This document shows, one piece after another, positions 8,499-29,896 of a stretch of DNA of 36,101 bases. Position 1 is the stretch's first letter; each line of letters starts with the position of its first letter. Origin of the DNA: a virus; IMG/VR virus record IMGVR_UViG_3300046468_002641, positions 1 through 36,101 of that record. The stretch is one strand, 5' to 3'. The notes under the pieces were generated by a model. The model made no database searches and had not been told where the DNA came from. It saw only the letters and a list, made by a program, of their open reading frames with translations. The position numbers and the translations under genes are program-made.

Positions 8499-8505
8499 TG
8501 TTACT

Positions 8506-8633: not shown

Positions 8634-8639
8634 TTTAAC

Positions 8640-8668: not shown

Positions 8669-8676
8669 AATTGCAT

Positions 8677-8988
8677 ATGAAGAAATTTATACAAGTTCCA
8701 GTAGAAATTCAAAACGACGTAATAGATGGTAAACTAATAGGAAACGACTTATTAATTTATAACTACCTAGTAATTAAAGCTGGACACGGAAAGCCGATTT
8801 ACTACTCAAACGAGAAGATAGGGGAAGACTTAGGCGGAATGTCCTACGGGAAGATATCTGCAAGCTTAAATAGACTAATGAAAGCTAAACATATAAAAAG
8901 AAGAAAAACTTGCAATAAAACAGAAACACAGCTAAGGACAGTAATAAGGGATTCTAATAACATTTTAATAAGAGGACAGAAGAAATGA
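8677..8988 (+). CDS. Small winged-helix DNA-binding protein, probable regulator or replication protein
   Basis: This is a 103-residue basic protein. The layout is FIQVPVEIQNDVIDGKLIGNDLLIYNYL (positions ~4-31), then IYYSNEKIGEDLGGMSYGKIS (~44-64) as helix-turn-helix, and LNRLMKAKHIKRRK as the end of the recognition helix and wing. This is the pattern of N-terminal winged-helix domains of phage replication initiators and MarR-like regulators ('vP..ll...Ls.....vy..L...s...ia..lg.s..tvs..i..L...g.I'). I prefer ATG 8677 over the upstream TTG 8671 because the promoter -10 ends at 8668. It is the first gene of the operon, beside two operator-like boxes, so autoregulation is plausible. Confidence 0.65.
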   Translation: MKKFIQVPVEIQNDVIDGKLIGNDLLIYNYLVIKAGHGKPIYYSNEKIGEDLGGMSYGKISASLNRLMKAKHIKRRKTCNKTETQLRTVIRDSNNILIRGQKK

Positions 8989-12352: not shown

Positions 12353-12357
12353 GAAAA

Positions 12358-12387
12358 TTGTAAAAACTCATAATATCATTATATTAT
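12358..12387 (+). promoter_or_regulatory. Possible internal promoter before the SSB-like gene
   Basis: The 45-base gap 12353-12397 contains TTGTAA (12358-12363), an 18-base spacer and TATTAT (12382-12387), 10 bases before ATG 12398. An alternative pair is TTGAGA (12349) with TAATAT (12371). Both are weak matches, but this is the only real gap within the rightward operon and the start has no Shine-Dalgarno. Confidence 0.3.
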
Positions 12388-12397
12388 TTAAACTATT

Positions 12398-12970
12398 ATG
12401 AGCATATCACTATACAAACCAAACAGCAAAAACGCGGGTTGCGCGTTTAAATTTTCAATCGGTCAAAACAAAAAAAAAGAACCAACTCTTTACGTTAGCG
12501 CGATCCAGCAGTATAGCTGGGATGATACTAAAAAAATCGGAAGCTTCTCCGGTAATGGGGACGATCCAGATAAAAAAATTAGCTTAAAGTTTTCAGAATT
12601 CGAGGTGGGAGGTATGATTAGTTCCTTCAAAAATAGGAATGAGTATTCATCATTTCACTCTTACGACACAAACAAAACCTCAATAAAATATACCCCCTGG
12701 GATAAAAAATCAAAAGTAAAGAGGGGGGACAAAGAAGAGTGGATAACCCTACCAGCATTCGGTATCACTTTTGTTAGAAATGGAAATCAAACATTCAGAA
12801 TACCGCTTGAGCCGGGTGAGGTGGAGAACCTAATTACCTTCTTTAAATTCTTTTTAAGTACCTTGTACTCATATAGAAGGGAACAGGAAGCGATCTCTCT
12901 TGAAGAATACAGGTCAAAAAACAACACAACTCAAGGCTCTAATAATCAAGAAGATGATGCCCCTTTTTAA
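12398..12970 (+). CDS. Putative ssDNA-binding protein with an SSB-like acidic C-terminal tip
   Basis: This is a 190-residue protein with no OB-fold signature. It has a beta-rich core (LYVSAIQQYSWDD; LKFSEFEVGGMISSFKNRNE; SSFHSYDTNKTSIKYTPW) whose strand-strand-helix order recalls Whirly/PC4-like ssDNA-binding folds. The C-terminus is a polar, Asn/Gln-rich linker ending EDDAPF, close to the bacterial SSB tip (acidic residues plus P-F). That tip in true SSB binds partner enzymes, so this protein may coat ssDNA or compete for SSB partners. It stands in the middle of the glycan operon, upstream of the GT4/GT9 genes and overlapping the next ATG (TAATG). Fold assignment is by pattern only. Confidence 0.5.
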   Translation: MSISLYKPNSKNAGCAFKFSIGQNKKKEPTLYVSAIQQYSWDDTKKIGSFSGNGDDPDKKISLKFSEFEVGGMISSFKNRNEYSSFHSYDTNKTSIKYTPWDKKSKVKRGDKEEWITLPAFGITFVRNGNQTFRIPLEPGEVENLITFFKFFLSTLYSYRREQEAISLEEYRSKNNTTQGSNNQEDDAPF

Positions 12971-14880
12971 TGAAAAAGAAAAAGGTATTAATCCACAGCA
13001 ACCACTGTAAGGCTCTTACTGGTTTTGGTAAGCATACTAAAAATATACTTATATACTTACAGAAAACAGGTAAGTACGAATTAGTTGAACTCTCGAATGG
13101 GGTAAAACAGGGTGACCCTTCACTTAAAAAACTCCCATGGACTTGCGAGGGCTCTCTACCAAATGATCCAAATTTACTAAAAAAGTTAAATAAAGATCCT
13201 AAGTTAGCGAGGAATGTGAGCTACGGCTCCGAAATGGTTGATAAAATAATAGAACGAGAAAAACCTGATGTCTATATAGGGATAGAGGATATTTGGGCTT
13301 TTTCGGGATACCCCGAAAAAAGTTGGTGGAATAAAATTAACTGCATGATATGGACCACGCTTGACAGTCTACCCATCCTACCGGACGCAGTAAAAGCTGC
13401 ACCGAATATAAAAAATTACTACACCTGGGCTTCGTTCGCGCAAAAATCTCTAAATGAAATGGGTCAAAACCATGTAAAAACATTAAGAGGTAGCCTTGAC
13501 GCTTCTAATTTTTTCAAAATTGAAAAACAGCAAAGATCTCAAATTAGAGAAAAGCTTGGTATTAAGAAAGATGACTTTATCATAGGTTTTGTTTTTAGAA
13601 ATCAGTTAAGAAAAAGCGTACCGAATTTACTTGAAGGTTTTAAATTATTCTTAAACAAAAACCCGTCATGTAATGGGAAATTGTTACTCCACACGCACTG
13701 GAATGAAGGTTGGGATATACCTAGGTTACTAAAAGAAAAAGATATCGACCCATCAAAAATATTAACAACGTATTTCTGCAAAAAGTGCGGGGAATATGAA
13801 ATCAAAAACTTTACAGGTGAGAATATTAATTGTCAACTCTGCGGTTCTGAAAAATCTCAAACCACAACCAACACGAAGTCGGGAGTCTCAGAAGAGCAGC
13901 TAAATGAAATTTACAATATCATGGATGTATACTGCCACCCATTCACAAGTGGCGGGCAAGAAATTCCGATACAAGAAGCTAAATTAACTGAATTAATAAC
14001 CCTTGTGACAAACTATAGTTGCGGAGAAGACTGTTGCGTAGAGGAGGCTAACAGTCTACCCTTAAGCTGGAGCGAATATAGAGAGCCTGGAACCCAATTC
14101 ATCAAAGCAAGCACAAGCCCTGATAGCATATGCAATCAGTTATCAAAGGTCCTATCTATGACTGACAAAAAAAGAAAAACGATGGGTAAAAACGCAAGAA
14201 AGTTTGTCTTAGAAAACTACAGCATAGAAGTTATTGGAAAAAAACTTGAGTCAATTATAGATGAAATGCCAGAAGTTTGCTGGGATTTTGATTTTAAAAT
14301 AGAGGAGAGAGACCCTGATTATAAACCCAACAACAGTTTAAGCGACCCAGATTGGATTCTAGACCTTTACAAAAATATCTTAAAGATTGAAACTAATAAT
14401 CTAGAAGATGGACACAAACATTGGATGAATCGGTTACAGACAGATCTAACAAGAGATGATGTTCTTAAATATTTTCGAGAGGTTGCAAAAAAAGAGAATA
14501 AAGAAAACAAAAAAACAGAACTAGCGGACTTACTAGATCAGGACGACGAGGGTAAGAGGCTTTTGATTGTTATGCCTGAAAGAATAGGTGATATTTATTT
14601 ATCAACCTCCCTTCTACCCAACATTAAAAAGCAGTATCCAGAATATAATATATACTATGCAACAAGACCCCAGTATTTTGAAATTCTAGATGGAAATAGT
14701 TACATACATAAATGTATACCCTATCAAGACTCTCTCGCAAACCTCCCCGTTATGGAAGGGCAATGGGAGAATAAAGGTTATTTTGAAATAGTTTTTATAC
14801 CATTCCTAGGGACACAGAGAGTGATCAATTTCCCTCATAACACGAAAGATAGAATACAATTTGATTTATGCACCTACTAG
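12970..14880 (+). CDS. Glycosyltransferase: GT4 enzyme with an inserted zinc ribbon, plus the N-terminal half of a GT9 domain
   Basis: This is a 636-residue protein. Residues 1-~430 are a GT4-type GT-B enzyme: KKVLIHSNHCKALTGFGKHT at the start, the donor-domain entry IIGFVFRNQLRKSVPNLLEG (~197-216), and SGGQEIPIQEAK (~327-338) in the acidic E-x7-E region. A probable zinc ribbon is inserted in the donor domain, CKKC at 270-273 and CQLC at 288-291. From about residue 528 (KRLLIVMPERIGDIYLSTSL) the sequence is the N-terminal Rossmann half of a GT9 heptosyltransferase-like domain. It stops at 636 before the C-terminal half, which is encoded by the next gene in the -1 frame. Probably two sugar transfers in surface-glycan synthesis (inference). 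Confidence 0.8.
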   Translation: MKKKKVLIHSNHCKALTGFGKHTKNILIYLQKTGKYELVELSNGVKQGDPSLKKLPWTCEGSLPNDPNLLKKLNKDPKLARNVSYGSEMVDKIIEREKPDVYIGIEDIWAFSGYPEKSWWNKINCMIWTTLDSLPILPDAVKAAPNIKNYYTWASFAQKSLNEMGQNHVKTLRGSLDASNFFKIEKQQRSQIREKLGIKKDDFIIGFVFRNQLRKSVPNLLEGFKLFLNKNPSCNGKLLLHTHWNEGWDIPRLLKEKDIDPSKILTTYFCKKCGEYEIKNFTGENINCQLCGSEKSQTTTNTKSGVSEEQLNEIYNIMDVYCHPFTSGGQEIPIQEAKLTELITLVTNYSCGEDCCVEEANSLPLSWSEYREPGTQFIKASTSPDSICNQLSKVLSMTDKKRKTMGKNARKFVLENYSIEVIGKKLESIIDEMPEVCWDFDFKIEERDPDYKPNNSLSDPDWILDLYKNILKIETNNLEDGHKHWMNRLQTDLTRDDVLKYFREVAKKENKENKKTELADLLDQDDEGKRLLIVMPERIGDIYLSTSLLPNIKKQYPEYNIYYATRPQYFEILDGNSYIHKCIPYQDSLANLPVMEGQWENKGYFEIVFIPFLGTQRVINFPHNTKDRIQFDLCTY

Positions 14881-16055
14881 AACAATATGCCCTATCCTGT
14901 GGCGTAAAGATAGATAAACCCTTCATAGAAACTTCTTATTTTCCAGTAGTTCCTGAAAAATATATAACACTGCATGCGAGCGAAAGGATTCAATCAAAAA
15001 CATACGACTATTATAATGACGCAATAGCATTAATCAGACCTTTTTTATTAAAAGAGGGTATACAAATAGTTCAAATAGGATCAAATAAAGAGTCCTGTAT
15101 ATCCAACTGCATACAACACCAAGGTAACACAACTATAAAGCAAGCTGCATATATAATCAAAAACTCGCTACTTCATTTAGGCACTGATTCATTCTCAACC
15201 CATGTCGCTTCGGGGTTTGGTAAAAAAATAGTAAGCCTTTATAGCACATTATATAAAGAATGTTGCGGTCCATACTGGGGCAACCCGAGTGAACAAGTCC
15301 TCCTTGAACCTGACAGGAAAAACAAAAAAGCCTCCTTCTCTGACGTGGAGTACCCAAAATCAATAAATACCATAATGCCTGAAAAAATTGCTTGCGCAGT
15401 TCTAGACTTACTAAAAATAGAACACAACTTATATAATATAGAAACATTTCACATAGGCGAATCTTATCATTCTGGATCATTAGCCGTTATACCCAACCAC
15501 GTAATGCCTGATAATTTCGCACCAAACCAACCAGCAAATATACTTGGACACGAGCATTTTGACGAACACAATATAACGAAATGGGCGTACAGCAGAAAAG
15601 TTAATATCTTCTTGAACAAACCGATGCATATCAATTATCTTAGAAGCGTAAAACAAAACATCAACCAAATTAATTACTTCGCAACACCAGACGATAACGA
15701 GTCATTTTTTAAAGCAGTATCCAAATTAGGCATTCGAGTAAAGATAATATCTAAAGATGAAAATACAATAAATGATTTAAAATTAAAATTCTTCGACTGG
15801 GATGTAAATCTTGTAACAAAAAAAACTAAAAAAGATATTGACAATTACGAAAAAATATGCAATAATACTCGTTATAAAAGTTCTCAAATCATCGCGTCAG
15901 AAAAAAAACTTTACGCAAGTAAAGCTGCTTGGAAAAATAATATCAATGGAAACCATGATAAAATCATTGACTGCGAAGAGTTCTGGGAAGATATTTCAAA
16001 CCTAAAACTTTACAACGACAAAAATTATGGCAAAAACGCAAACAGCAACAGATAA
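14868..16055 (+). CDS. C-terminal half of a GT9 (heptosyltransferase-like) domain plus an unknown C-terminal region
   Basis: This is a 395-residue protein whose first ~185 residues complete the GT9 domain begun in the previous gene. The order is HLLEQYALSCGVKIDKPFI, then YITLHASERIQSKTYDYYN (donor-side strand), IQIVQIGSNKES (~65-76) and LHLGTDSFSTHVASGFGKKIVSLYS (~102-126). The last corresponds to the conserved D-t/s-x-x-x-H-x-A...G-k-x-x-v-x-L-y/f motif of ADP-heptose:LPS transferases. Residues ~190-395 are not recognised; they are Asn/Lys-rich and mixed alpha/beta. ATG 14868 lies 13 bases inside the upstream frame, with no Shine-Dalgarno, so translation should be coupled. A lone half GT9 is unlikely to be active without its partner. 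Confidence 0.7.
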   Translation: MHLLEQYALSCGVKIDKPFIETSYFPVVPEKYITLHASERIQSKTYDYYNDAIALIRPFLLKEGIQIVQIGSNKESCISNCIQHQGNTTIKQAAYIIKNSLLHLGTDSFSTHVASGFGKKIVSLYSTLYKECCGPYWGNPSEQVLLEPDRKNKKASFSDVEYPKSINTIMPEKIACAVLDLLKIEHNLYNIETFHIGESYHSGSLAVIPNHVMPDNFAPNQPANILGHEHFDEHNITKWAYSRKVNIFLNKPMHINYLRSVKQNINQINYFATPDDNESFFKAVSKLGIRVKIISKDENTINDLKLKFFDWDVNLVTKKTKKDIDNYEKICNNTRYKSSQIIASEKKLYASKAAWKNNINGNHDKIIDCEEFWEDISNLKLYNDKNYGKNANSNR

Positions 16056-16857
16056 CTCAATCACATTAAGTTCTGAATCAGAAAAAAGTAAAAAACAAAC
16101 ACAGTATATAAAAAATTATATAGATGGGCCCGGGAAGTTCTCGAGGAACGAATATGGATTATTAAATAATGTAGATTATGAATTTGCTGAAGACGGATCT
16201 GTTAACTGGAGGTCAATGATAAAAGATGAACATCTCTTTCCTAATAAATCGTGGTTCGATCTAAGAAAGAAAGATGTACCTAGATCTATCGATGGACTAA
16301 AGGATCATCAGCTCTTGATTAAATTAAGCGGAATTAAAGAGCTTGCGAAATTAAGAGGCTTTTCTGACGTTGAATATGAAACCGTCAAGTGTGAAATGAA
16401 CCATGTAGCTATTTTATGCCGAATGAAATTCTCACCAAACTATGAAACCTTTGGCCAATCGGTCATATTCCAAGATATGGCGAATGCAACACTAGACAAT
16501 ACAAGCAGCTTCGCTACAAAATTCCTCGAAACGATAGCTTGCAATCGAGCTTTTGTAAGATGCGTAAGAAACTTCTTGAATGTTCACATCGTAGGAGACG
16601 ATGAGATTGATAAATCAAACAGTATAAACAAAAATATCGGATCTTCTATATCTCCATCTCTTACTCCTCATTCTATGGTAGAGAATTTAGTTAGAGAAAA
16701 ATTAAATTGTTCAAACTTTGATGAATTTAAAGTCGTATTAAGGGATTGGTGGAAAGCGGGAAAGTATCAAAATGATAACGCTAAAGACTGGGGTGATTTT
16801 GGCGACATCTCCCCAACTGATTCAAGAATCTTAATGAAAGTTATAAATTCAGGATAA
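16027..16857 (+). CDS. Putative ssDNA-annealing/recombination protein, Rad52/Sak-like
   Basis: This is a 276-residue protein. After a polar N-terminus (1-55) come HQLLIKLSGIKELAKLRGF (~94-112), a VKCEMNHVAILCRMKF strand (~119-134), and a helix with ACNRAFVRCVRNFLNVHIVGDDEI (~168-191). The pattern of a short strand pair, then A-x-T/N-R-A-x-x-R-x-x-R-x-x-x-N followed by an acidic end, is that of Rad52-superfamily and related phage proteins that anneal ssDNA. A role in replication or recombination would fit the SSB-like gene upstream. It starts 29 bases inside the GT9 gene with no Shine-Dalgarno. It ends by overlapping the convergent S74 gene by 9 bases. The assignment is a pattern match and needs a profile search. 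Confidence 0.5.
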   Translation: MAKTQTATDNSITLSSESEKSKKQTQYIKNYIDGPGKFSRNEYGLLNNVDYEFAEDGSVNWRSMIKDEHLFPNKSWFDLRKKDVPRSIDGLKDHQLLIKLSGIKELAKLRGFSDVEYETVKCEMNHVAILCRMKFSPNYETFGQSVIFQDMANATLDNTSSFATKFLETIACNRAFVRCVRNFLNVHIVGDDEIDKSNSINKNIGSSISPSLTPHSMVENLVREKLNCSNFDEFKVVLRDWWKAGKYQNDNAKDWGDFGDISPTDSRILMKVINSG

Positions 16858-17376
16858 CCTCAGTTCTTCAATTTCCCTCTCCATTTCATCAATCAGCTTT
16901 TGCTGATCCTGAATTGCTCCAATCAATATTGGAACTATCTTCTCGTACTTAATGGCCTTATATCCATTTTTCCTAGTTTCAACAATTTCTGGAGCAATAA
17001 CTTCAACTTGCTGAGCTATTAAACCAATATCTATGCCAGTATAAGTAGATTGATTGTTATTCCATTCGAAATCTATAGCGTCAATACTCAACACCTTATC
17101 TAGGCAATTTTCGATCAAAGAAATATTGTCTTTAAGCCTTTCATCTGAAGAGGAAAAAGCCTCAACATCACCCTCGCAATATAATCCATCCGCGCATCCA
17201 ATAAAAAATGAGTTATTTGTTCCGTTTGGGACAACAACTGAATCCCCAATCACATGGACGTTTGAACTGTTCGCAGGAATTAAGTTATCCGAACCTTGGA
17301 TTATAGAACATCCGTTACAATTCGAGCCGATTGAATTATTCTCCCCCCCTATTATAGAATTAAACTTACCTCCCAT
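16849..17376 (-). CDS. Small fibre-tip protein with peptidase S74 intramolecular chaperone domain (second copy)
   Basis: This is a 175-residue protein. Residues 1-~60 are beta-roll repeats (FNSIIGGENNSIGSN, CSIIQGSDNLI, VHVIGDSVVVP) like those ending the 2062-residue fibre. Residues ~74-175 are a complete S74 domain: SSSDERLKDNIS with the self-cleavage Ser77-Asp78 and Lys82, the F-x-W strand (FEWNN), IGLIAQQVEVIAPEIV, YKAIKYEKIVPILIGAIQDQ and a C-terminal coiled coil. In known systems S74 trimerises a fibre, then cleaves itself off N-terminal to the Ser. The start has a Shine-Dalgarno-like AGAGG 6 bases upstream of the ATG and overlaps the previous gene by 11 bases. It begins in mid-repeat, as though cut off a longer fibre. 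Confidence 0.85.
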   Translation of the reverse strand: MGGKFNSIIGGENNSIGSNCNGCSIIQGSDNLIPANSSNVHVIGDSVVVPNGTNNSFFIGCADGLYCEGDVEAFSSSDERLKDNISLIENCLDKVLSIDAIDFEWNNNQSTYTGIDIGLIAQQVEVIAPEIVETRKNGYKAIKYEKIVPILIGAIQDQQKLIDEMEREIEELRLS

Positions 17377-18073
17377 TCCTAACCTCTTTTATTTTTTGTT
17401 TCATTTTGTTGATTTTTTTATTCTGATCCTGTATTGCTCCGACAATAATTGCAGTCATTTTTTTATAAGATAAAGCTTTGGTTCCGTCGTGCCTGGTTCG
17501 CACTATTTGAGGTTTTATCCTTTCTACCTCTTGAGCAATTAAGCCGATATCCCTTTCTCCATTCCTGTTCTTCCAATTAAAATTAACGCATTTTATTTTT
17601 AATAAATCTCCCAAGCAATTCTTCATTAATGAGACATTATCTTTCAATCTAATATCCGAAAGATTAAAAGCTCTTATATCACCTGTGCACCTCAAGAATT
17701 CGCAAAACACATAGACGCGATGATCCTTGGAATGGAGCTTAGCATCAATATAATCATAATTCTGAAAGCCCCAAGATGTGTCGTTCTGCATTATTTGATA
17801 AATATACCAAATATGAGGTACGCCCCAGTTCCCAATGATATGCAAATTATAGCAGTTGTACATTTGCACAACATAATTACTTTGAGTGCTGCTACACCCT
17901 ATCATAGAGCATCTCCTCGAATCACTTATTAGCGTTTTTTCTGATGAACTTTCTGCCCCAGAAGAAATAATCAAATTAGAAGCATCAATACCTAAAGCAT
18001 TGTATCCGGCATTAGTTATCGAGTCACCAGGTGGCGAAATTTGATTAAAATTTGGAGGATTGTATAATGCCAT
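17366..18073 (-). CDS. Small fibre-tip protein with peptidase S74 intramolecular chaperone domain (first copy)
   Basis: This is a 235-residue protein. Residues 1-~135 form the mature part: a short N-terminus (MALYNPPNFNQISPPGDSIT), degenerate beta-roll repeats (LISDSRRCSMIGCSS; NCYNLHIIGNWG) and an aromatic segment (WGFQNYDYID). Residues ~136-235 are the S74 domain with NLSDIRLKDNVS (Ser139-Asp140, Lys144), FNWKN, IGLIAQEVERIKPQIV and a basic C-terminal coiled coil. It is paralogous to the next gene but its mature region differs, which suggests two alternative or successive fibre tips. The ATG overlaps the upstream stop (TAATG) and the C-terminus overlaps the next start. Confidence 0.85.
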   Translation of the reverse strand: MALYNPPNFNQISPPGDSITNAGYNALGIDASNLIISSGAESSSEKTLISDSRRCSMIGCSSTQSNYVVQMYNCYNLHIIGNWGVPHIWYIYQIMQNDTSWGFQNYDYIDAKLHSKDHRVYVFCEFLRCTGDIRAFNLSDIRLKDNVSLMKNCLGDLLKIKCVNFNWKNRNGERDIGLIAQEVERIKPQIVRTRHDGTKALSYKKMTAIIVGAIQDQNKKINKMKQKIKEVRNGR

Positions 18074-18984
18074 TATCTATTTATTTTTTTAAATGTTATT
18101 TGATTTGGTTGATGCGAAGCTAAGGAGTACATTGCTATAAAAGCATCATTATTACTATTCTTCATAATTAACCACCAAGCATCTAGGTTATTCCACTCTC
18201 TATGTACAAATGTTACTTGTAAAGTAATATAATTAATTCCATTTTCAGTGACTTGCGAATTACTGAAAACATATCCGCCCTGAGTAACCTCCGAAAAATC
18301 AAATCTACTGGAGTCGACTTTAAGTCTCATAATAAAGCTAGGCTCACAGAAAATCCAACCTATTTTATCAGCCGTACTACTTCCTGGTTCAAGATTTTGG
18401 ACAGTTGAATGAAGATAAAAAAAAGAACCCCTTGTTCCTCTGGGTGGCCCCAAGTACATCCATCCTAAATCCACAGAGTATATATTCTTGGAATTAGCTT
18501 TTTTATATATTCTACCTGTTTTATCTGAATAATTCGGTATTGGGCTAATATTTATTGAATTACTTGATACTTGAGTTACGGTATAAGTTTGGGTAGGACT
18601 GTATTGAAAGCTTATTGTATTACCTACATTTAATATACTGCTTAAATTTACAGTAGTTATGACCTGTGAGTTGCCCGCAGTAATTTCGACAACACCTGCC
18701 AGAGGTGTATAAAGCTGGTCTACGTCTTCTGATATTATTTTACCCAAAGGTGTGTTCGCAATCCAGTATGCATTATTCCAGTAAGTAAATTGCAGTCCAA
18801 CAGATTCTGAGTAACCAAAAAACCATGTATCATACATCCAACCCAGATTATTAACCCTTGCGTAATTACCATCTTTACCTGAATAATATTTTGAATATAT
18901 AGAAAACCTTGAATCTAAAGCGAAGGTTGGGTGACTGAAGCTATTCTCCGCGCCATTACTTGTGTTATGAATAATATCAACCAT
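18073..18984 (-). CDS. Fibre-associated protein with tryptophan-rich LGW repeats
   Basis: This is a 303-residue protein. It has three spaced aromatic motifs: NLGWMYDTWFFG (~46-57), DLGWMYLGPP (~170-179) and KIGWIFCEPSF (~206-216). These recall LGW-type repeats in surface and secreted bacterial proteins and in the I-J fusion of this phage. Between the first two lies an inserted beta domain (EITAGNSQVITTVNLSS, then TISFQYSPTQTYTVTQVSS). The C-terminus (~217-303) is another beta sandwich. No catalytic motif is seen. It overlaps the ends of the 2062-residue fibre and the first S74 gene by one stop/start each, so the genes are co-translated. It is probably a fibre or receptor-contact component; family unknown. 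Confidence 0.5.
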   Translation of the reverse strand: MVDIIHNTSNGAENSFSHPTFALDSRFSIYSKYYSGKDGNYARVNNLGWMYDTWFFGYSESVGLQFTYWNNAYWIANTPLGKIISEDVDQLYTPLAGVVEITAGNSQVITTVNLSSILNVGNTISFQYSPTQTYTVTQVSSNSINISPIPNYSDKTGRIYKKANSKNIYSVDLGWMYLGPPRGTRGSFFYLHSTVQNLEPGSSTADKIGWIFCEPSFIMRLKVDSSRFDFSEVTQGGYVFSNSQVTENGINYITLQVTFVHREWNNLDAWWLIMKNSNNDAFIAMYSLASHQPNQITFKKINR

Positions 18985-21900
18985 TAGTTAATTACATTAA
19001 AATTACCACCGATTATAGACTGACTAGATCCATCAAGTATTTGGTTACCCTTCCCTCCACCTATGAAATTACCGCCACCATCCTGTGTTGCATCCGTTAG
19101 TCTACTCACCTCTTGAGCGCCTGTGTCTATTTCGTTCTGATAGCCCCCAACTATCGAAGAGAAATTATCTTCGCATACATTTCCATAGCCATTACCTATG
19201 AAAGAAAATCTTCCCTTTATCAAATTATTGGATCCAGCAACGATGGAAGAAGCTAGAGATTTATAATTGTTTGCATTATCTACATTTTCTGTTATTGAAT
19301 TCGAATAACCTCCTCCTATAAAAGTTGCCAATGTATCACTAGGATCATTTAAATTTTGCGCAAGTGCGCTGACAGTCTGAATGGAAGAATTATTTGTAAA
19401 ACTTCCCTTAATTTCTATCTTACCCTTTTTTGAGCTGAACCTTAAGTAAGATTCTATAACATTCCCGCTTGAATCTAAAACGTTATTTATTCCCCCGCTG
19501 TCTTTTATTGGTCCACCAACGTCAAAATATACATTATTAGAATTATCCCTACCTAACAAAAATCCTGCGGTATTATAATTTTCTACAGAAACAGCAGCTT
19601 GATTGCTATTATTATATAATCCTCCTATGAAACCGTTAGAGGCGATAAGCCCTCCTAAGTTTCTGCCTAATATAATTCTTTCCTCTACAAAACTTTGCTC
19701 TGCTACTAATAATTTTGTAGCGACACTGGAGAATACAGCCCCGAAGGGTTTCCAGTAAACCGAAGAGCTATTCGGTGTTTGTGAAGACCCATTAATACCG
19801 CCGTTACTTTGTAAGCATACGTAATAATCAGATAAATGCTTGACTATATCTCCCCTACTGGGCTCAGTCCTGGTGCCATCTATAAAAAAGTAAGACTCGC
19901 TAGGATCCCACTCCCCCCTATAAGTAGGGGAGGCCCCCATTCTACCATCCAAGCCATCTTGCCCTATCTTTCCATCGATAATTCTTGTTATAGTAACTGA
20001 ATTTTCTAAAGATGATGTTTTACTTTTAGCATAAACTACTATGCTATCCCCAGTTGTATTAAAGCTTTTAAGTATATCATCAAAGCCAACCTCTGAGCTT
20101 ATACCAGCTTTTAGATACGCTTTGAAATTTCTATTAGAACCATCTATTTCAAAATCATCAATATCATAAGAAAACCCGCTTAATGTAGGTCCTGAATATA
20201 TTTGATTATTGATATCATAAGCGCTATCAAATTGATCATAAGAAAAAACCTGATGATTTTGGTTTTCGCTTATTAAATCCATCCTAAATTGAATATCTGT
20301 AGTAGTTGCTGAACTATTTCTGAGAACCCCACTTATGATTATATCAGAAGAATTTACCATCTGGTAGTTATTATTCACTTCTTCATAATTAACATATGAA
20401 GGAATACTCTGCAAACCACCTATATCAAAATCGTTGCCATCTGTCTGCCTTATTCTTCCCTGTAAGGTCAAAAGCCCATCCTTGAAACCAAGACTGCCTC
20501 CGGGAGTTTTAAAACCAAAAGTTCCGTCCCCACTCAGAAAAAAGCCTTGATTTATACTTTGATCATCGATATCGTAAAAACCTAAGGATCTTACAACACC
20601 TCCATTCGAAGCGCCATCTGTTGTCAACTGAATATCTGCGCTTTTTATTAATCCAGCCTTTAATTTATCAACCTTTAAGTCATTTATCTTTGCGTCTACA
20701 ATTGCGGCGTTAGCGATATTAGCTGTACCTATTAAGGCGTTAGCGAATGAGTAGTAAACTGGAGTAGCAACACCTAAATCTGCCCGCGCAACTATAAAAT
20801 CTCCATCATCAAAACCGTTTATAGCCCCTTGTCCCTGAGATCCTGCCGGGTGACTTTCTGAAAAATTATAACTAGAATCCCCCCTATTCCACCATATATA
20901 ACCACTCGACTTAGTTATATCAGTTTCGCCTGGATCGATTATATACTCTGCCCCAGTAAAATACAATTTATGACTAATCCACTCGACTTGATTACTTGTG
21001 CCAACTTGAGAGAATGGGTTATTGGGGACGAGGGATATAGTATTAGGAAACTTTTCGGTCATCCTTATTTCGAAACCAGATATATCAGTAGCTACCGCCT
21101 CTCCAAGTGTAAGCTCCAAACCCTTTATGTATAACAAATCCGATTCTGGTTGAAGATTAGCTTGCCCAGTGAAAGGGCCTTTATTGCCAGCGTAATCAAC
21201 AGATCTTACCCAGAAATATTTCTTATCATTAGTCTTTCCGAAATGCGAGACTTCAACCTCTGGACCATTTGCGTTTACATTGAATATTCTTTTTGCATTA
21301 GTGATACCTAAAGCGGGGTCTTGGCGCTCTATAGGGATGGGCTGACCGCCCTCTATATAATTAGGTATATTGCCTTCTATCCTCCTATATCCACTATTAT
21401 TAGAAAAGTCCAAAGGCTTAGAGAGATCCTTCTCATCTTTTAAAAACGCATTTATGCTACCGAGCTCAAGTTTATCGTCATCTGACGCCCAAACCTCATA
21501 ATAACTTATATCATTGGGTATTTCATCGACATTTTGAATATTACCGCTTGGATGGCTCCAACTTAAAAAATAATTCTCAAACGCAGTGTCGCCACTAAAA
21601 CTTACAACGGGCCCAGGAATGTCGTCCTCCGAAGTTCTAAAAACTGGGCCGATTGACCCATTAGGGTTCTTATTGTTGTAACTTCTAGGCCAAACCATAA
21701 CCTTTTGCAAATCTTCCGTATTATCTAACACTCGATATAAATCTCCACTACCAAAATCATCAAAAGGTAATATTTTATAAAAATAACCCGTGGGTTGATC
21801 TATACCATCCACTCTAGGGATTGGTGGCTCATCCACTATTTGCGTAACATTGTCCCCAAAAGATGCGTCCGCTGCGCCTAGAGTTACCTTAACTAAAGTG

Positions 21901-24900
21901 GAATCTAAATTTATATTATTTTCAAAATCAGGAAGAGAGTCGTAAGGTCTACCATCCGAGCCGGTGATCTCAAAATTTTCTTGACTAGATCTATATAAGT
22001 TAACTTTTGTCGTTTTTTCTTGAGTCGAAAATGCGTATGTAAAATTAAACTTAACTCTCGTCACTTCGTCCGTACTATTAACAGCGAACCCATCCTCCTT
22101 TATGCTAGGCTCCTGATTAATTCCTATTATTTTCTCACTATTTAATATATTTCCATCTTTATCTATTATGCCAACTTCAATACCTACACTCCTCTTTCCG
22201 CTCTCTGGGATACCTATATGACCAAAAACAAAATCGTCATAACTATCATCACGCAGCCACACGGGAATCCATTGAGATTCCTGAAAAGTTGAGTTAACAT
22301 ATTCGCCAGAACCAATGTATGCATCCAAGGGCCCCCCGGTAGGGTTGTCCTCCAAGGCGTAATATAATGAATTATTATGGTAAACGATGTCATTTTGATT
22401 ATATCCAGAAGGGTAAATATCGTCTCCACCCGCATCAATATTTGTCCAAAAACCTTCTCCCTGAACAGGAGTCATTGAAGTGTTCGTAATCAATCCGCTC
22501 CATATATCATTGTCGTACAAAACTAAACTACCACGAGTATAAGTTTTATCGGCTGACCAATTATATGCATCTAACTTATAAGCTGGATACAACAAGTTAA
22601 ACCATTCGCTATTATCCGGTGTCTGTTTAGTCCAATTATTAACGTCCATAGAAGGACTAAATCCATTAAAATCCCAATGCGATAAGGGAGCCTTCTTCCA
22701 TCCATCAGAAGTATATACTTCAATAAAATGATAATCTGGCTCTATATCACACAACGAATGAGAACCATCATCCACCTTATCAGATTCGTGCAGGGCGATT
22801 TTACCCCAATTCCCATCTGAAACATTAACGTAAAGAAAATTTGAATCACATTCTACATCTCCATTATTTCCCGCGCTCCTGGTTACTGGAATAAGCGGGA
22901 TTCTGCCCCAATTATCATAATCGAAACAGTAATACAAATAATGATCAACAACATTTCTATCTCCTGGATTTCCTGGAGACGAATGATCAAAAGAACTGGT
23001 TCCTACAGAAATATCCACATTCACTTTATATATAGAGCACGGAACTTCGTCAAATAACGAAAGAACTCTCCACCTCGTCCTATCTGTTCCGGGAATAAAG
23101 CTTTGATTTGCTTCCTGATCTCTCAAACACAAGTAAAAAGTCTGATAATGCAAGACTACATCACCAGCTATATAGCTTGTTCTCGAAGAATAAGAAAATA
23201 TCTGATCATCAGAACTTATTACTAAATCGTCCACAAAGTAATTCACGCGGGAATCAAAAACCCCCTTAACATTGCTAGAATTTGGACCAAATGACCCATC
23301 TAAATGAGCATAGGGTTTCTCTACCCTATAGATATTACCTTTGTATTGAAGTTGATTATTAAAACCGTTCCAGTAATAAGTCTCTGAAGTACTCCATTCT
23401 TCATAATGAGGTCTTGGGTTATTTATAAACATAAGGTCAAGGAAAGAAAACATCGTATCAACATTGAACTTATATATATGTTTATTAAAATCTGCTACAA
23501 AATCACCAGAATTATAATATCCATTTGCATCAAATATCTGAAAATTAGAAGCAAATCCCCCTGTTCCATAAATCTCATTATTCACCTCTCTTGTGTATTC
23601 GTACGAATCAATTAATTTCGTAGTGGGGAGATCAAAAATCACAGTTCTATTTCCATCAGTATCTATGGATGATATCTTAGAATTTTCTCCCTGCGTTATT
23701 CCTGTAAGGAAATCTTTTGTGTGAGAATCAAATAAAGATCCGCTTATGCCTAATATAGAAGGGGTGTCAGAAGTAGAGAGAGCAAATCTATATTGTTCTA
23801 AATCAACCAAATTATTATCTTGATCTAGTATATTCCAATCAAAAATCAAATCATCCTTCCTTTCTCTAAATCTTAGATTAGAAACCTTGACCTCGGAAAC
23901 CAAACCCTTAAGTTCCCCTGATTGAGTCAACCCCCCCTGGCTTAAGTTCAAAATATCCGAGCTCCCATATCCATCATGGGCCTGAAAGGCGTAATAATAA
24001 GATAAGCCCCATGTCTGAGTATCCGAATATTGATTATTTGTTATGTTGAAACTCGAATAATCATAAAGAACCTTATCCTCCCTTATGAATTCCCAATAAT
24101 TACCATTATCGGGGGTTCTATTCTTGTCGCTAGAGTGAGTCTGAATGCACTTAAAAATACCCGTTTGAGGAGGTGTGTTGTAAGTTACCATATCCCCAGA
24201 CAGGTAGTTGCCGAACCCAAAATTCCATTGATTAGCTAAAAGCACATCTCTAAAATAATCTATATTCGTCTGAAGATTTTCGTAGTCAACAAGTTCCACA
24301 GAAGATGGTATCCCCAACCTTTGGAGAGAGACTTTATTAAAATCGGTATCATTGGAAAACCAAGAAAAAGAAACGTCCGAGCCCCTCAAACTGTAATTAA
24401 AACCCTCTATATTTGACTCATAATTTACACCCGTCAGTACACCGGTCGCGGTTCTACCGAAAGAATCATGAGATACTATCCTTAGGCCAAACGTGCGATC
24501 TAAATTTAAATCATCAAAAACTGACTCGTTCAAACTTAAAGAAAATTCCCTATAGTTAGATAACGCCTCACTAGGAGCTCCAGCTGAAATAGAATTTTGC
24601 AAGCCCGGGCTAGCATCTAGCACTGATGCGGGAATAACAACAGCCCCTGTTCCATTTTCTATAGTTATATCAAATTTCTCAAACAAACTGTCCTTCAATA
24701 ATTCGGAATCAATAGACTCCCCCTGCTTCGCATGCCCAACCGGAGGGATCAACTCCCATGAAATTTGAGAGTTTTTGTTTATAAATTCAGACTTAACCTC
24801 TAGTTTATCACCCTCGAACTGAGGGGAGTGGATATTAACGGAACCGACATCTGTTCTAACCGGAAGATTAGTGATTCTTAAGTTATTAAAAGTAAAAGTA

Positions 24901-25172
24901 TTGTCGAATTTCGGAGGGCTTATATTTATTCCGGTTTCAACGAAAGCCGACCTAACACCTATATCACTTATAGCATAGACCCTAACATCAAAAAACCCAT
25001 ACTTACCCTCTAATGAAACTGATTTCTGAATCGCCTCCCCCTCAAAGTCGGCCAAATCCCTACCTACGCCTAAATTATACTGAAAAGAATAGTTATCGGA
25101 TGATCCGGCAACCTCGTAATGAGCATCAAGATCATTTACATTAAATTGAATTCCTAGAGCAGTAGATAACAT
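18984..25172 (-). CDS. J C-terminal part / long central tail fibre with beta-roll tip
   Basis: This is a 2062-residue protein that continues the lambda J architecture begun in the next upstream gene. Residues 1-~470 are fibronectin-III-like beta sandwiches. Several modules with W/Y..G..V..Y.W spacing at about 310-362, 636-700, 866-911, 917-970 and 1747-1809 look like carbohydrate-binding modules (CBM5/12 type). About 740-835 holds three ~40-residue repeats with YDNWGRIPL, DGNWGKIAL and SDGWKKAPL. Around 1480-1510 ANIANAAIVDAKINDLKVDK is the J-type stalk helix repeat. At ~1737 comes a short collagen-like GQDGLDGRMG. The end (1947-2062) is at least six S-x-I-x-G-G-x-x-N-x-I beta-roll repeats and stops in mid-array. 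Probably the receptor-binding fibre. Confidence 0.82.
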   Translation of the reverse strand: MLSTALGIQFNVNDLDAHYEVAGSSDNYSFQYNLGVGRDLADFEGEAIQKSVSLEGKYGFFDVRVYAISDIGVRSAFVETGINISPPKFDNTFTFNNLRITNLPVRTDVGSVNIHSPQFEGDKLEVKSEFINKNSQISWELIPPVGHAKQGESIDSELLKDSLFEKFDITIENGTGAVVIPASVLDASPGLQNSISAGAPSEALSNYREFSLSLNESVFDDLNLDRTFGLRIVSHDSFGRTATGVLTGVNYESNIEGFNYSLRGSDVSFSWFSNDTDFNKVSLQRLGIPSSVELVDYENLQTNIDYFRDVLLANQWNFGFGNYLSGDMVTYNTPPQTGIFKCIQTHSSDKNRTPDNGNYWEFIREDKVLYDYSSFNITNNQYSDTQTWGLSYYYAFQAHDGYGSSDILNLSQGGLTQSGELKGLVSEVKVSNLRFRERKDDLIFDWNILDQDNNLVDLEQYRFALSTSDTPSILGISGSLFDSHTKDFLTGITQGENSKISSIDTDGNRTVIFDLPTTKLIDSYEYTREVNNEIYGTGGFASNFQIFDANGYYNSGDFVADFNKHIYKFNVDTMFSFLDLMFINNPRPHYEEWSTSETYYWNGFNNQLQYKGNIYRVEKPYAHLDGSFGPNSSNVKGVFDSRVNYFVDDLVISSDDQIFSYSSRTSYIAGDVVLHYQTFYLCLRDQEANQSFIPGTDRTRWRVLSLFDEVPCSIYKVNVDISVGTSSFDHSSPGNPGDRNVVDHYLYYCFDYDNWGRIPLIPVTRSAGNNGDVECDSNFLYVNVSDGNWGKIALHESDKVDDGSHSLCDIEPDYHFIEVYTSDGWKKAPLSHWDFNGFSPSMDVNNWTKQTPDNSEWFNLLYPAYKLDAYNWSADKTYTRGSLVLYDNDIWSGLITNTSMTPVQGEGFWTNIDAGGDDIYPSGYNQNDIVYHNNSLYYALEDNPTGGPLDAYIGSGEYVNSTFQESQWIPVWLRDDSYDDFVFGHIGIPESGKRSVGIEVGIIDKDGNILNSEKIIGINQEPSIKEDGFAVNSTDEVTRVKFNFTYAFSTQEKTTKVNLYRSSQENFEITGSDGRPYDSLPDFENNINLDSTLVKVTLGAADASFGDNVTQIVDEPPIPRVDGIDQPTGYFYKILPFDDFGSGDLYRVLDNTEDLQKVMVWPRSYNNKNPNGSIGPVFRTSEDDIPGPVVSFSGDTAFENYFLSWSHPSGNIQNVDEIPNDISYYEVWASDDDKLELGSINAFLKDEKDLSKPLDFSNNSGYRRIEGNIPNYIEGGQPIPIERQDPALGITNAKRIFNVNANGPEVEVSHFGKTNDKKYFWVRSVDYAGNKGPFTGQANLQPESDLLYIKGLELTLGEAVATDISGFEIRMTEKFPNTISLVPNNPFSQVGTSNQVEWISHKLYFTGAEYIIDPGETDITKSSGYIWWNRGDSSYNFSESHPAGSQGQGAINGFDDGDFIVARADLGVATPVYYSFANALIGTANIANAAIVDAKINDLKVDKLKAGLIKSADIQLTTDGASNGGVVRSLGFYDIDDQSINQGFFLSGDGTFGFKTPGGSLGFKDGLLTLQGRIRQTDGNDFDIGGLQSIPSYVNYEEVNNNYQMVNSSDIIISGVLRNSSATTTDIQFRMDLISENQNHQVFSYDQFDSAYDINNQIYSGPTLSGFSYDIDDFEIDGSNRNFKAYLKAGISSEVGFDDILKSFNTTGDSIVVYAKSKTSSLENSVTITRIIDGKIGQDGLDGRMGASPTYRGEWDPSESYFFIDGTRTEPSRGDIVKHLSDYYVCLQSNGGINGSSQTPNSSSVYWKPFGAVFSSVATKLLVAEQSFVEERIILGRNLGGLIASNGFIGGLYNNSNQAAVSVENYNTAGFLLGRDNSNNVYFDVGGPIKDSGGINNVLDSSGNVIESYLRFSSKKGKIEIKGSFTNNSSIQTVSALAQNLNDPSDTLATFIGGGYSNSITENVDNANNYKSLASSIVAGSNNLIKGRFSFIGNGYGNVCEDNFSSIVGGYQNEIDTGAQEVSRLTDATQDGGGNFIGGGKGNQILDGSSQSIIGGNFNVIN

Positions 25173-25188
25173 AATATATATTATTATA
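25170..25188 (-). promoter_or_regulatory. AT-rich TATAAT-type element before the J C-terminal gene
   Basis: The minus strand reads TATAATAATATATATTATG, starting within the upstream stop codon and ending in the ATG. It resembles the exact TATAATATATTATG found before the genes at 1081 and 31297. No Shine-Dalgarno is present. A promoter or initiation role is inferred from recurrence only. Confidence 0.3.
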
Positions 25189-28100
25189 CAGTTAAATCAA
25201 ATAATAACAACCCATCTGGAGCATCAGGTAATGACATGTCCGCTTGAGGCGGAATTGGCAGCGCAGGAGAGCGGGGAGGTCCTTTTTGTTCTACAGCTAG
25301 AAACTTTGAAGGGTTATATTCTAATGCAGTAACTTCGTATTTATTTTCGGATAATTCTTTCACAGAAATAGTTCTAAATAATTGAGACTCAAGCTTCCTG
25401 AAAATTTTAGACTCGGGGGGTAATTCTATACTAACAAATCCATATTCAGTGACACCAATCATTAAACCAATCAAGGACGCACTGGATTCCAGTTCTATCA
25501 CATTAGTATCAACCTTACTGAAATACCACTCACCATTAATCAAATTATCGAATTGCTGACTGGAAGACAACACCGCTGAAATATCAATTGTTTGTGTTAA
25601 ATCTAAATTTATACCATGCCCACCGCTTAGTTCCACTCTAATTGCCGACTCCCCTTGAACGCTCTGGTTTTCATCAACGCTGTACATTGCAGATATATCA
25701 GATTTTACAGCTCTTGGGTTTTCCAAATCAGAGAAAGATGGAGGGTTATTAGAAGATGCCTCCATATAATTCGCTACATCACCCGTTTCACTAAACATTA
25801 AGAAGAAGCCGTTGGAGTCCTTACCTGATATAAATAACCTTTGATCTTTCCCTAATATATAATAATCACCAACACTTAAATTCGTTCCGCTATCATATAC
25901 ATAAAACCCAACAATATTATCTCTAGAAGAATTATCATATATTAGGTATACCCACTTTTTAATAGTGTTTATATACCAAAAAGTATTCTTATAATTATCA
26001 TTAGTCCAAACCCATCCTATACCTGTTGATTCAACTTCTGATTGACTTCCTCCTATATACATCCAGAAACCATCTTGACTATCTATAACTCTATTCTTCA
26101 ATCTCCCTATGTATAGCCACAGCCTCGATTGGTATATAAAAATCCAGTCTGCCCCTGAGTTATAATACCAACCTAAGAAGTCGGACCTATACCAATTAGC
26201 TGCAGATAGAGCTGCTGTTGAGTTAGAGCCAATCGACTCTGCAGTAGAACTAGATATTTGCTCCAGCTCCCCTGTTACTGATACCAACCCTCTTATTGAA
26301 TACGCTGCTCCTAAATTAATTTGATCTAAAAAATCCTTTAACATATCAGCATCAGAGCTGATTAAATAATGCCGCCCCCCAACATTCCCAAACATATCCA
26401 AGCCAATATTAAATATATTCACAACCAACCCGTCAGAAGTCTTCGATATTTGAAAAGTGTGCCGTGTGGAATTGGTTACAAAATAATTCGACGAACCATC
26501 ATTTGTTTTATTTATGCCGCCGGGAAGCTTCCCATCAGAAGTAAAAGAAACCTTCTGTCCATCGGAAAAACCGTGGTTATATATTTTTATTAAATTATCA
26601 GAGACAGAAACCTCCATTTGTATTTTTATTTTTAAATCCTCTATAATCGTCTTTTGCCCTTGTGGTCCAAAATTCCTAACCGTAGGGTCACTAGAGACCC
26701 TACCCTCAAACCTAAGAATCTGAGAAGTTCTCAAAGACTCTATTTCCTGATCTTGGTCCTCCTCGCTCTCCTCGACCCTAGCTCTTTGCTCGATCATTTC
26801 TAGAGACTCATTCGTTCTAGCTAAGGAAATAACTATTTCAACTTTATCTATACCAGGAGAAGATAGATGGGATTTATCTATAAGAATATAGGGTTCAAAA
26901 TATTCTTGATATTGCTGGGTGAACGACCCAGAACTCTGTGAGACTAAAATCTTATTTCTGTATAATTGAATATCCAAGATTCTACCACTCTTATCTGAAG
27001 AGGTTCTAACTTCGTCTGAAATTTCAATGATTGAACCAGCAGTTAAATACGAAGCCTCTTGCCCTGCGTTAAATTTTACTGTTTCTGTTTCTAGTTGAGA
27101 TGTCATCAAAATCCACCTTGCCAGCCTCCTCGCCTGACTTTCTGAAGTTATACCAAACCCCATAGTTTCGTTTTCTATGTACCCTAAGGATATCATAGAA
27201 CTCTCATCTTCTTCGTAGACGATGTCAGGCTTAAAGGATTTGTCCTTATTGTTAAACCTAACCAAACAAGCCGTTGCTTTTTTATTCTTATGGACGCCTG
27301 CGTATGAAAAATCTCCTCCTAATATATTAGAATTATTAAAAAGCTGAACGGGAATCTTATCTCTATCGTATGTAGCCCCGACCTTACCAGAAGAATAAGC
27401 TATCATACCCCTAAATATAGAAGCCATGGAGTTTATTATTTCCAATGCCTCGGATCGCTCTGTTAAATATAAATTAGCTGTAAACCTAGGTTCAACTATA
27501 GGATAATTTATTTGAGTAGCGCACGCTGCAATCAGTTTAATTCCGTTACTTTCGAAATTAGCGGAGTCATCCCTCAAATCTGGCCCTTTTACTGTAATTT
27601 TCCTTGTTGAGGTATTAGAATAAACTATAACTCTCTCGTAAACCTTAATTTCGCCCTCCCTATTTATGGATTTCCTAGTAAGAGTATCTTGTTGATCTGA
27701 ATCTAACCCCTGCCCTTGACCAAAATTATGTTGATGAACAAAAATAGCTATTTTTTTACCAGCGAAAGATGTACCGCTACCAAATTCTTTTGTAAATACT
27801 GATGCGCTTACAGCGCTATCATCAACATTAATTTCAAAATTCGATCGTCTTCCTCTAGAGGAGATGTAAATTTTGCAACCCCTAGGTTCTGAGGTTTGAG
27901 TTTCTACAGGAAAATCTGTCTCAATTAATTGATCGCAGTACTTACCTACTTTATAAAGCTGCCACCTATCAATTGAATATTCTTCGAGTCCGTATTTACC
28001 AATTCCGTACCTAGGATTATGAAGCATATCAAAAAACACCCAAGCAGGATTATCGCTCCAAACTTTATTTGACTCAGAAATTTCATTAACAGATTGTGCC

Positions 28101-29896
28101 AAATCTGTCTGACCTTTAAATAACCCATCCCACGGTCCATCATAAGTCTTTGATTCAGGGTTATAATTCGAAGGAATTAGTATTTTTTTTAATTTTACGT
28201 GATAAGTCCTATTTGGAGAACTAGAAAAGTTTTTTGAATCAATATTTACTCCAACCATTGAACTGTGGGGGTAAGTTAACTTCTGATTTATGATTTCAGA
28301 AAAACTTGCCAATTGAAGAACTTTTCTTTTGTTTAATCCCCCAGTATCACCGTCTTTCGCAGAGGGGTCATACTCGCAACTTAATTTTATAACTTTGAAA
28401 GTTACTCCCGAAGAAACCTCGCTAGATCCATTATCTGGGTTATAGTGTATATTAACATCAAACTGATAAGGGGCGGTCGCTATTCCAATCAGTTTAAAAT
28501 GAGATTCGCCATTCGAACTACTCACTAAAGATAGCCCGCTTTTGGATTTTTCTTGCTCTTTAATAAATTTCTGTCTTTGCATAGTATGATAGAAGCCTCT
28601 TCCTATAAGACCGCCGACATTCCCCTCCTGCCAATTACCGTTTTCCTGATCCCATCTTTCTAAATCTTCTTCTTTTTCTAAATCGAAATTTCTCAAAGAC
28701 ACCCCTTCCGAGTCTAAAACAATACTTCTGGGATCATCGAGCACATTAAACTCTCCATCGTGCCTATTCATTAAAATAATAAACCTAACATCATTATGAG
28801 AAGTGCTTCCGTCACTTTGGTTTACTTGTAGTTCTGTCTTAAATGAAATCCTAACTTGGTCAACTTCCTTATTTGCCACAAAATGAGAAAACACTTTTGC
28901 AGATTGACTTATCGCCTCTGAATGAGATACATAATTAGCCTTCGGTTTATCCTTGTTATTATTTTCGTACGGCCCAGGGCCATATAGCAGAGTGTTGTAT
29001 TCAAGATAAGAAGAAACACTACTAGATATTATTTTGTCATCAAATGCACTTCCCGCCTTAAATTGGCACTTCCCCTCTTCCGAGTCTTCAGACTCGTTAA
29101 GTATATAATTAAAGGTTCCTTCTTGCCCATTTGAGCTTGGGGTGTTTTTCACCTGAACATCATTTAAATATATACCTTCCCTTATGTCGCCCCCAGATAT
29201 TGGCCCCCCATATTTATTAACAAAACCCTCTATAGGACCTTCGCACAATAAATCAACAAATCCCATATTCGAAAAAGATTCTAACGTTAAATCGTTTGAA
29301 CTATTTCGAATCCTCTTTGCTGAACTATCGTGAGATATGGTAGCGCCACCAATTCTCAATCTACCATAACCTAATGGAACAGCAATTCCTTGAGCTTGTC
29401 TAGTTTGCGACCCAGACATCAAAAAAGACTTCGTCGTAGTCGGGGTACCTCTCTTTGGTGGTTTTGGTGGCTTAAATAAAACATTCATTCCGATTTGAGC
29501 TACAGTCCCCCAAACCATCGCAGACGCAACGGCGCCTATAGTAGCTGCTTTTATACCAAATAAAGTAGCACCCTTGATTAAACCACCGACAAAACCCGCT
29601 ACGACACCCCCGTACGCTCCAGAAACAATATGAATTTCTTCATTTTTATATTTTATTTCAGTTTCTAATTCATTTACTGAACTATCCTCAACATCTTTTT
29701 CGCTTGATATATATTTCGGATCCTTCTTTAGAAAAATATAATGTTCGCCATCAATGGCTTTTTTTTGTATATAGTCTATAAAGCCTTCGCTGTTGGCCTC
29801 TAACGCCTGAATAATCTCGATAGGAGTTTTCGCAGCGATTCTCCACTTCCTACCAAAGCGTTTTCCCAATTTACCATGTAAATATACCGTTTTCAT
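25184..29896 (-). CDS. Fusion of tail assembly protein I to the N-terminal part of tail tip protein J (lambda-type)
   Basis: This is a 1570-residue protein. Residues 1-~135 match lambda gpI: VYLHGKLGKRFGRKWRI at the start, then a ubiquitin-like region and a small-residue, glycine-rich hydrophobic segment (SGAYGGVVAGFVGGLIKGAT). From ~143 J begins: PPKPPKRG, QTRQAQGIAVPLGYGRLRIGG (~163-183) and LLCEGPIEGFVNKYGGPISG with LNDVQVKN (~215-250), all J hallmarks. The middle (~500-1090) is the J hub and barrel. Residues ~1235-1342 are a tryptophan-rich stretch (FLGWYYNSGADWIF, SRLWLYIG, GIGWVWTND). J normally also carries the stalk domains, but here they are in the following 2062-residue gene. It probably forms the tip hub that closes the tail tube. 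Confidence 0.85.
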   Translation of the reverse strand: MKTVYLHGKLGKRFGRKWRIAAKTPIEIIQALEANSEGFIDYIQKKAIDGEHYIFLKKDPKYISSEKDVEDSSVNELETEIKYKNEEIHIVSGAYGGVVAGFVGGLIKGATLFGIKAATIGAVASAMVWGTVAQIGMNVLFKPPKPPKRGTPTTTKSFLMSGSQTRQAQGIAVPLGYGRLRIGGATISHDSSAKRIRNSSNDLTLESFSNMGFVDLLCEGPIEGFVNKYGGPISGGDIREGIYLNDVQVKNTPSSNGQEGTFNYILNESEDSEEGKCQFKAGSAFDDKIISSSVSSYLEYNTLLYGPGPYENNNKDKPKANYVSHSEAISQSAKVFSHFVANKEVDQVRISFKTELQVNQSDGSTSHNDVRFIILMNRHDGEFNVLDDPRSIVLDSEGVSLRNFDLEKEEDLERWDQENGNWQEGNVGGLIGRGFYHTMQRQKFIKEQEKSKSGLSLVSSSNGESHFKLIGIATAPYQFDVNIHYNPDNGSSEVSSGVTFKVIKLSCEYDPSAKDGDTGGLNKRKVLQLASFSEIINQKLTYPHSSMVGVNIDSKNFSSSPNRTYHVKLKKILIPSNYNPESKTYDGPWDGLFKGQTDLAQSVNEISESNKVWSDNPAWVFFDMLHNPRYGIGKYGLEEYSIDRWQLYKVGKYCDQLIETDFPVETQTSEPRGCKIYISSRGRRSNFEINVDDSAVSASVFTKEFGSGTSFAGKKIAIFVHQHNFGQGQGLDSDQQDTLTRKSINREGEIKVYERVIVYSNTSTRKITVKGPDLRDDSANFESNGIKLIAACATQINYPIVEPRFTANLYLTERSEALEIINSMASIFRGMIAYSSGKVGATYDRDKIPVQLFNNSNILGGDFSYAGVHKNKKATACLVRFNNKDKSFKPDIVYEEDESSMISLGYIENETMGFGITSESQARRLARWILMTSQLETETVKFNAGQEASYLTAGSIIEISDEVRTSSDKSGRILDIQLYRNKILVSQSSGSFTQQYQEYFEPYILIDKSHLSSPGIDKVEIVISLARTNESLEMIEQRARVEESEEDQDQEIESLRTSQILRFEGRVSSDPTVRNFGPQGQKTIIEDLKIKIQMEVSVSDNLIKIYNHGFSDGQKVSFTSDGKLPGGINKTNDGSSNYFVTNSTRHTFQISKTSDGLVVNIFNIGLDMFGNVGGRHYLISSDADMLKDFLDQINLGAAYSIRGLVSVTGELEQISSSTAESIGSNSTAALSAANWYRSDFLGWYYNSGADWIFIYQSRLWLYIGRLKNRVIDSQDGFWMYIGGSQSEVESTGIGWVWTNDNYKNTFWYINTIKKWVYLIYDNSSRDNIVGFYVYDSGTNLSVGDYYILGKDQRLFISGKDSNGFFLMFSETGDVANYMEASSNNPPSFSDLENPRAVKSDISAMYSVDENQSVQGESAIRVELSGGHGINLDLTQTIDISAVLSSSQQFDNLINGEWYFSKVDTNVIELESSASLIGLMIGVTEYGFVSIELPPESKIFRKLESQLFRTISVKELSENKYEVTALEYNPSKFLAVEQKGPPRSPALPIPPQADMSLPDAPDGLLLFDLTV

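Follow-up and report, generated by a model that had tools for sequence, protein, structure and literature searches.

The distal end of a lambda-type central tail fibre is probably split in the 36.1-kb viral contig analysed here (the whole stretch is called the window), with a separately encoded tip protein and S74-bearing caps that would join the long fibre in trans. S74 is the textbook case of an intramolecular chaperone, and the window likely holds a variant of this autochaperone system, for which completion in trans is favoured over a simple insertion of a cassette. The tail genes were of lambda type by profile matches, with J-, L- and M-like genes adjoining the fibre (Phage_tail_L E 2e-41 and Phage_min_tail E 2e-25 for the latter two). 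On the minus strand, the order was J-like gene, fibre (2062 aa), tip (303 aa), S74a (235 aa) and S74b (175 aa), followed by a convergent 276-aa gene:

25184..29896 (-): J-type central fibre protein, 1570 aa, upstream of the fibre (PHROG 31, E 4e-117)
18984..25172 (-): fibre gene, 2062 aa, C-terminal extension of the central (J-type) fibre (ORF, 25 relatives)
18987..19325 (-): fibre roll, approximately aa 1950-2062, about six rungs (35-row alignment, predicted strands)
18073..18984 (-): tip protein, 303 aa, with W-rich (LGW) repeats, a gene of its own in the window
17366..18073 (-): S74a protein, 235 aa, with a Pro-rich N-terminus, a degenerate roll and an S74 domain (PF13884 E 9e-12)
17369..17659 (-): S74 domain of S74a, predicted cut before Ser139, Lys at +5
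16849..17376 (-): S74b protein, 175 aa, with a roll from the first residues, then S74 (PF13884 E 1e-13)
17197..17376 (-): roll of S74b, approximately aa 1-60 (profile scores and AlphaFold2)
16852..17148 (-): S74 domain of S74b, predicted cut before Ser77, Lys82 at +5, nearest fold the MyRF ICA domain
16027..16857 (+): convergent gene, 276 aa, conserved, bordering the module in all relatives used

The fibre and tip genes, and likewise the tip and S74a genes, were joined by TAATG overlaps, and S74a and S74b overlapped by 11 nt. PF13884 was absent from the 2062-aa fibre in a Pfam profile search, and its C-terminus reads ...SIIGGNFNVIN followed by a stop, one residue past a beta-roll rung. The coordinates and contents given in the original prediction for the fibre, 303-, 235- and 175-aa genes were all correct according to the ORF calls and profile searches, including the lack of S74 in a fibre with this ending, and the PF13884 matches began exactly at Ser77 and Ser139, the residues before which cleavage is predicted.

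Several other features of the window were recorded. The J-type protein apparently has tail-assembly protein I fused at its N-terminal end (aa 1-200; PHROG 32 and Lambda_tail_I at aa 1-196), and the shaft of the fibre gave two CBM_5_12 (carbohydrate-binding) matches at aa 871-901, within an insert that is not present in L003. A sugar-gene cluster at 8985-16055 (+), with a HAD fused to a nucleotidyltransferase, a WavE-like gene and two glycosyltransferase families (one with DUF4214), is possibly involved in modification of phage or host glycans. An 861-aa protein at 1273-3858 (-) matched PHROG 15433, labelled 'tail sheath' (E 2e-52); this label is odd beside a lambda-type tail and may be wrong.

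To gather relatives, an S74 alignment, the fibre, the 175-aa protein and the 276-aa gene were used as queries against viral contigs, which gave approximately 45 distinct contigs with the module (all counts are of contigs, and some of these are nearly identical to one another). In these relatives the parts always ran fibre, roll, tip, roll, S74, and only the gene borders differed. A one-gene form was found in L051/L231, where a single 3418-aa ORF holds all five parts, and a two-gene form in approximately 35 contigs, where fibre and tip form a single gene, with one separate roll-S74 gene after it. The three-gene form occurred in L103 only (tip and S74a fused as a 422-aa protein), and the four-gene form in nine contigs (the window, L003/L107, L006, L007, L009, L019, L045, L117 and L122), of which L117 and L122 were counted without inspection of the fibre itself. 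L085, the fibre frame of which was missing from the ORF call, was left out of the layout counts. Among the roll-bearing relatives, S74 was in the same chain as the fibre in L051 alone, and a search with the end of its 3418-aa gene returned no second contiguous gene; in L028, L032, L034 and L041, S74 was in cis on fibres with neither roll nor tip. Two single-cell marine viruses, AG-345-D19 and AG-345-L05, had S74 fibres of the ordinary cis type, and matches in GTDB genomes were mostly restricted to the S74 domain. The 303-aa tip, the fibre end and the 276-aa gene had no match among 50,697 phage records, and the viral-contig scan with the 303-aa protein as lone query found nothing.

At least 164 viral-contig stretches carried the 276-aa gene in strongly conserved form, and 0 INPHARED records did; the gene gave no Pfam or PHROG match and is possibly a marker of an uncultured phage lineage. 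In the more distant relatives found through this gene (L046-L084, leaving aside L051 and L065), no S74 match lay beside it.

The 3418-aa ORF is the contiguous fibre-roll-tip-roll-S74 gene that had been sought as a check of the original prediction. The proposal that a fibre-S74 gene was opened by insertion of a tip cassette was not supported in this simple form, as this contiguous gene already has the tip between two rolls, and as most relatives have the tip fused to the fibre and S74 separate. Nor did all relatives keep the same separate genes with unrelated repeats: layouts varied, and the rolls were related. The variable feature is the position of the gene borders, together with an apparent S74 gene duplication.

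In an alignment of 35 fibre ends, the rungs were shared up to and including the last one. Fibres of the three- and four-gene forms stop 1-4 residues after this last rung, and two-gene fibres continue into the tip there. Because the split fibres end at the rung where two-gene fibres enter the tip, the gene break lies at a domain border, and the stop in the window fibre is the regular end of the fibre's part of the array. The description of an array that stops 'mid-array' was therefore misleading, the stop being the end of the conserved last rung, whereas its resumption in the S74 proteins was supported by profile comparisons. A roll profile built from the relatives' fibres (window excluded) scored 101.5 bits against the window fibre and 11.4 bits against residues 1-68 of the 175-aa protein, the latter value being reached by 4 of 2000 shuffles. 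In profile-profile comparison, fibre rolls and 35 S74 N-termini gave a score of 38.9 (best of 200 column shuffles, 23.3), in which the last two rungs of the fibre aligned with the first two of the S74 proteins. Taken alone, the 235-aa protein has a degenerate roll that was not significant (142 of 1926 shuffles). A profile of S74a proteins, in which the 235-aa protein was not retained, scored 90 against the S74b/single profile, and the 235-aa N-terminus matched the single-S74 profile at E 2e-8; the roll of this protein is recognisable only through its relatives.

The AlphaFold2 monomer of the 175-aa protein contained a roll at aa 11-60 (pLDDT 87-95) and a predicted C-terminal helix at 144-174 (pLDDT 84-94), a candidate trimeric coiled coil. 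The fibre end was predicted, with moderate confidence, as strands to its last residues, and this model gave no useful PDB match. Divergence of the fibre roll and of the S74 domain was correlated beyond that of the 276-aa gene (partial r 0.51, permutation p 0.0005), which may reflect linkage on one exchanged block. The extent of such a block was given by comparison with a sister contig, L004, which matched the window at 96.4% identity across 14.0 kb and at 97.5% across 2.76 kb (blastn):

17031..20661 (-): exchanged block, no DNA similarity to L004 inside, 96-97% identity outside (blastn)

The block, of approximately 3.6 kb, extends from near residue 1504 of the fibre into the 175-aa protein, up to about residue 115. 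The window carries the four-gene module and L004 the two-gene module, so that, given the identity outside the block, the same phage backbone bears either form, and the exchange implies that fibre end, tip and S74 roll were inherited as a unit. Earlier work on marine phages described variation islands in host-recognition genes, among them a fibre that has YadA-like and S74 domains (PMC3909814).

The 303-aa tip gave no Pfam or PHROG match and has no Gly-rich motifs in its sequence, and as a lone query it matched the tip of L019 only, which indicates that tips diverge fast. A profile of seven separate tip genes matched the C-terminal domains of two-gene fibres (for example, L106, L088 and L105), as well as the N-terminus of the 422-aa tip-S74a protein of L103, and the single tip gene of L009 matched the fused tips of L108 and L088 at E ~1e-9. 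W-rich repeats related to the tips were also seen at approximately aa 1150-1310 of the J-type protein (tip profile E 6e-6); the LGW module is thus present twice along the fibre.

The two S74 proteins scored 51.5 and 45.5 bits against PF13884 (curated cut-off 22), and the best PDB match of the S74 profile was 6f45. A Ser with Lys at +5 was kept in 55 of 55 S74 proteins (S77/K82 and S139/K144 in the window). In T5 pb1, Ser1264 and Lys1269 have been proposed to act in cleavage (PMC4690869), and by analogy the window proteins would be cut before Ser139 and Ser77. In a tree of S74 domains, S74b grouped with the lone S74 of two-gene phages, and S74a formed long branches apart, owing to which the fine structure of the tree is unsure; S74a appears to be a diverged paralogue. 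The Pro-rich N-terminus of the lone S74 form is kept in S74a, and S74b begins directly at the roll. This pattern suggests that the S74 gene was duplicated and that S74a was left free to diverge. Between L006 and L007, dN/dS was 0.24 for the tip, 0.18 for S74a and 0.09 for S74b, and all three genes are under purifying selection. On the 87-kb contig of L003 there was no additional S74 domain available to the fibre. The S74a protein of L045 (reverse-complement 6255-9506, equal to L110:6739-9990) is 1083 aa long and has a large insert between roll and S74, which carries HEVAHAFGIGR, a zinc-metalloprotease-like (HExxH-like) motif; Pfam finds S74 alone in this protein, and the tip of this phage may bear an enzyme.

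In the proposed assembly, the distal end of the central fibre would be encoded as four co-translated pieces, which are variously joined in relatives. The S74 proteins would trimerise through their C-terminal domains, and their short N-terminal rolls would extend or cap the fibre roll at its open end and template its folding, with the tip held at the junction of the fibre roll and the S74 rolls. The S74 domains would cut themselves off before Ser139 and Ser77, and the short rolls would remain on the virion. Completion in trans is the best reading because the separate parts of the window are fused in relatives (L051/L231, the approximately 35 two-gene contigs and L103). The second proposal of the original prediction, that short S74 proteins complete a long fibre in trans, gained support from these fusions; the physical assembly itself, the order of stacking, the cleavage and distinct roles for the two S74 forms are inferred. 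Parts that are fused in a relative are likely, though not proven, to interact. Against assembly in trans are the degenerate roll of the 235-aa protein, the finding of no more than one contiguous gene, and structure predictions that are of monomers only. Chances are about even that the module represents a natural intermolecular S74 system, in which the self-cleaving chaperone has been detached and duplicated, each form adds a short roll in trans, and the distal fibre consists of exchangeable parts.

It is unlikely that the S74 proteins are independent small spikes or appendages off the long fibre, with rolls that are alike since the repeat is common. They do have rolls of their own, S74a tolerates large inserts (as in the 1083-aa protein of L045), and roll repeats of the same type are known elsewhere, for example in autotransporter heads. 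However, roll, tip, roll and S74 form one chain with the fibre in L051, the gene order is invariant across relatives, and the single block exchanged between the window and L004 took in the fibre end, the tip and the S74 N-terminus. We also consider it quite unlikely that the S74 proteins act as trans chaperones only, folding fibre and tip and then leaving the virion wholly, as do the separate chaperones T4 gp57A/gp38 and Pam3 gp25, which are absent from the particle (PMC9608196): each S74 protein keeps a fibre-like roll before the predicted cut, for which a pure chaperone would have no need, and in L051 the S74-side roll belongs to the fibre chain.

Blockwise swapping of the module between sister phages would also be expected if the downstream S74 genes were silent cassettes that recombine into the fibre gene and alter specificity. 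This is very improbable, as start/stop overlaps suggest translation of all four genes, dN/dS is well below 1, and the downstream pieces are different parts, not alternative fibre ends. There is scarcely any likelihood that programmed frameshifting, or read-through of the stops, turns the adjoining genes into one long protein after all. The fibre/tip TAATG overlap, with a -1 relation, occurs in the window, L006, L007 and L045, but the 56 junctions were mixed in frame relation (30/19/7), those between fibre and tip showing all three relations. Junction gaps ranged from -14 to +31 nt, and junction frames were not conserved; with such mixed frames and gaps, separate and probably coupled initiation is likelier than frameshifting. 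An assembly error or gene decay, for which nothing speaks beyond the unusual layout, is next to inconceivable and already contradicted by the relatives, given nine four-gene contigs, breaks at domain borders and dN/dS well below 1.

In literature searches, no account of S74 in separate genes came up, which is weak evidence of novelty. As the same parts occur both fused and split, even in near-identical sister phages, it is directly testable in this system whether S74 can act in trans. If correct, the proposed reading would show how separate, exchangeable proteins can make up a trimeric fibre tip, and how marine phages alter a host-recognition module as one block.

Among known systems, the predicted roll of the 175-aa protein resembled the heads of trimeric (YadA-like) autotransporters, with Z 7.0 and 1.4 A over 51 residues for UspA1, and Z 4.9-5.4 for SadA, 4.3 for CbpF and 4.1 for AtaA, where values of Z <8 may reflect a common arrangement only. 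The Pfam YadA families gave no match at E up to 1 in the 2062-, 235- and 175-aa proteins, and, unlike the autotransporters, the window is without any autotransporter parts. In phage S16, the receptor-binding tip adhesin gp38 is separately encoded and attached distally to the gp37 fibre, which carries S74. The tip is thus encoded apart from the fibre in both phages, but S74 is in cis on gp37 and in separate genes in the window, and the 303-aa tip is without the polyglycine motifs of gp38 and is homologous to fibre-chain domains in its relatives. Phage S16 is described in PMC9608196. The L-shaped fibre protein pb1 of T5 and the K1F endosialidase hold the same domain family (PF13884, above the curated cut-off in the window), and, as in the window, their S74 has the Ser with Lys at +5 and a predicted C-terminal helix and follows a trimeric beta-structured part of the fibre (PMC4690869). 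In these proteins, however, S74 lies within the protein that it folds, whereas the window has a long fibre without S74 and two diverged S74 copies in separate genes with their own starts, each with a short roll. In phages DT57C and DT571/2, the fibre is formed from the adjacent LtfA and LtfB, both ending in PF13884, and a natural deletion has fused the two into one working fibre (PMC4728585). As in the window, a single fibre is formed from the products of adjacent genes, but each long Ltf protein has its own S74 and the fibre branches, whereas S74 is absent from both the 2062-aa fibre and the 303-aa tip, and the S74 proteins of the window are short and seemingly continue the same roll. The natural fusion of LtfA and LtfB supports the tolerance of such fibres to splitting and fusing.
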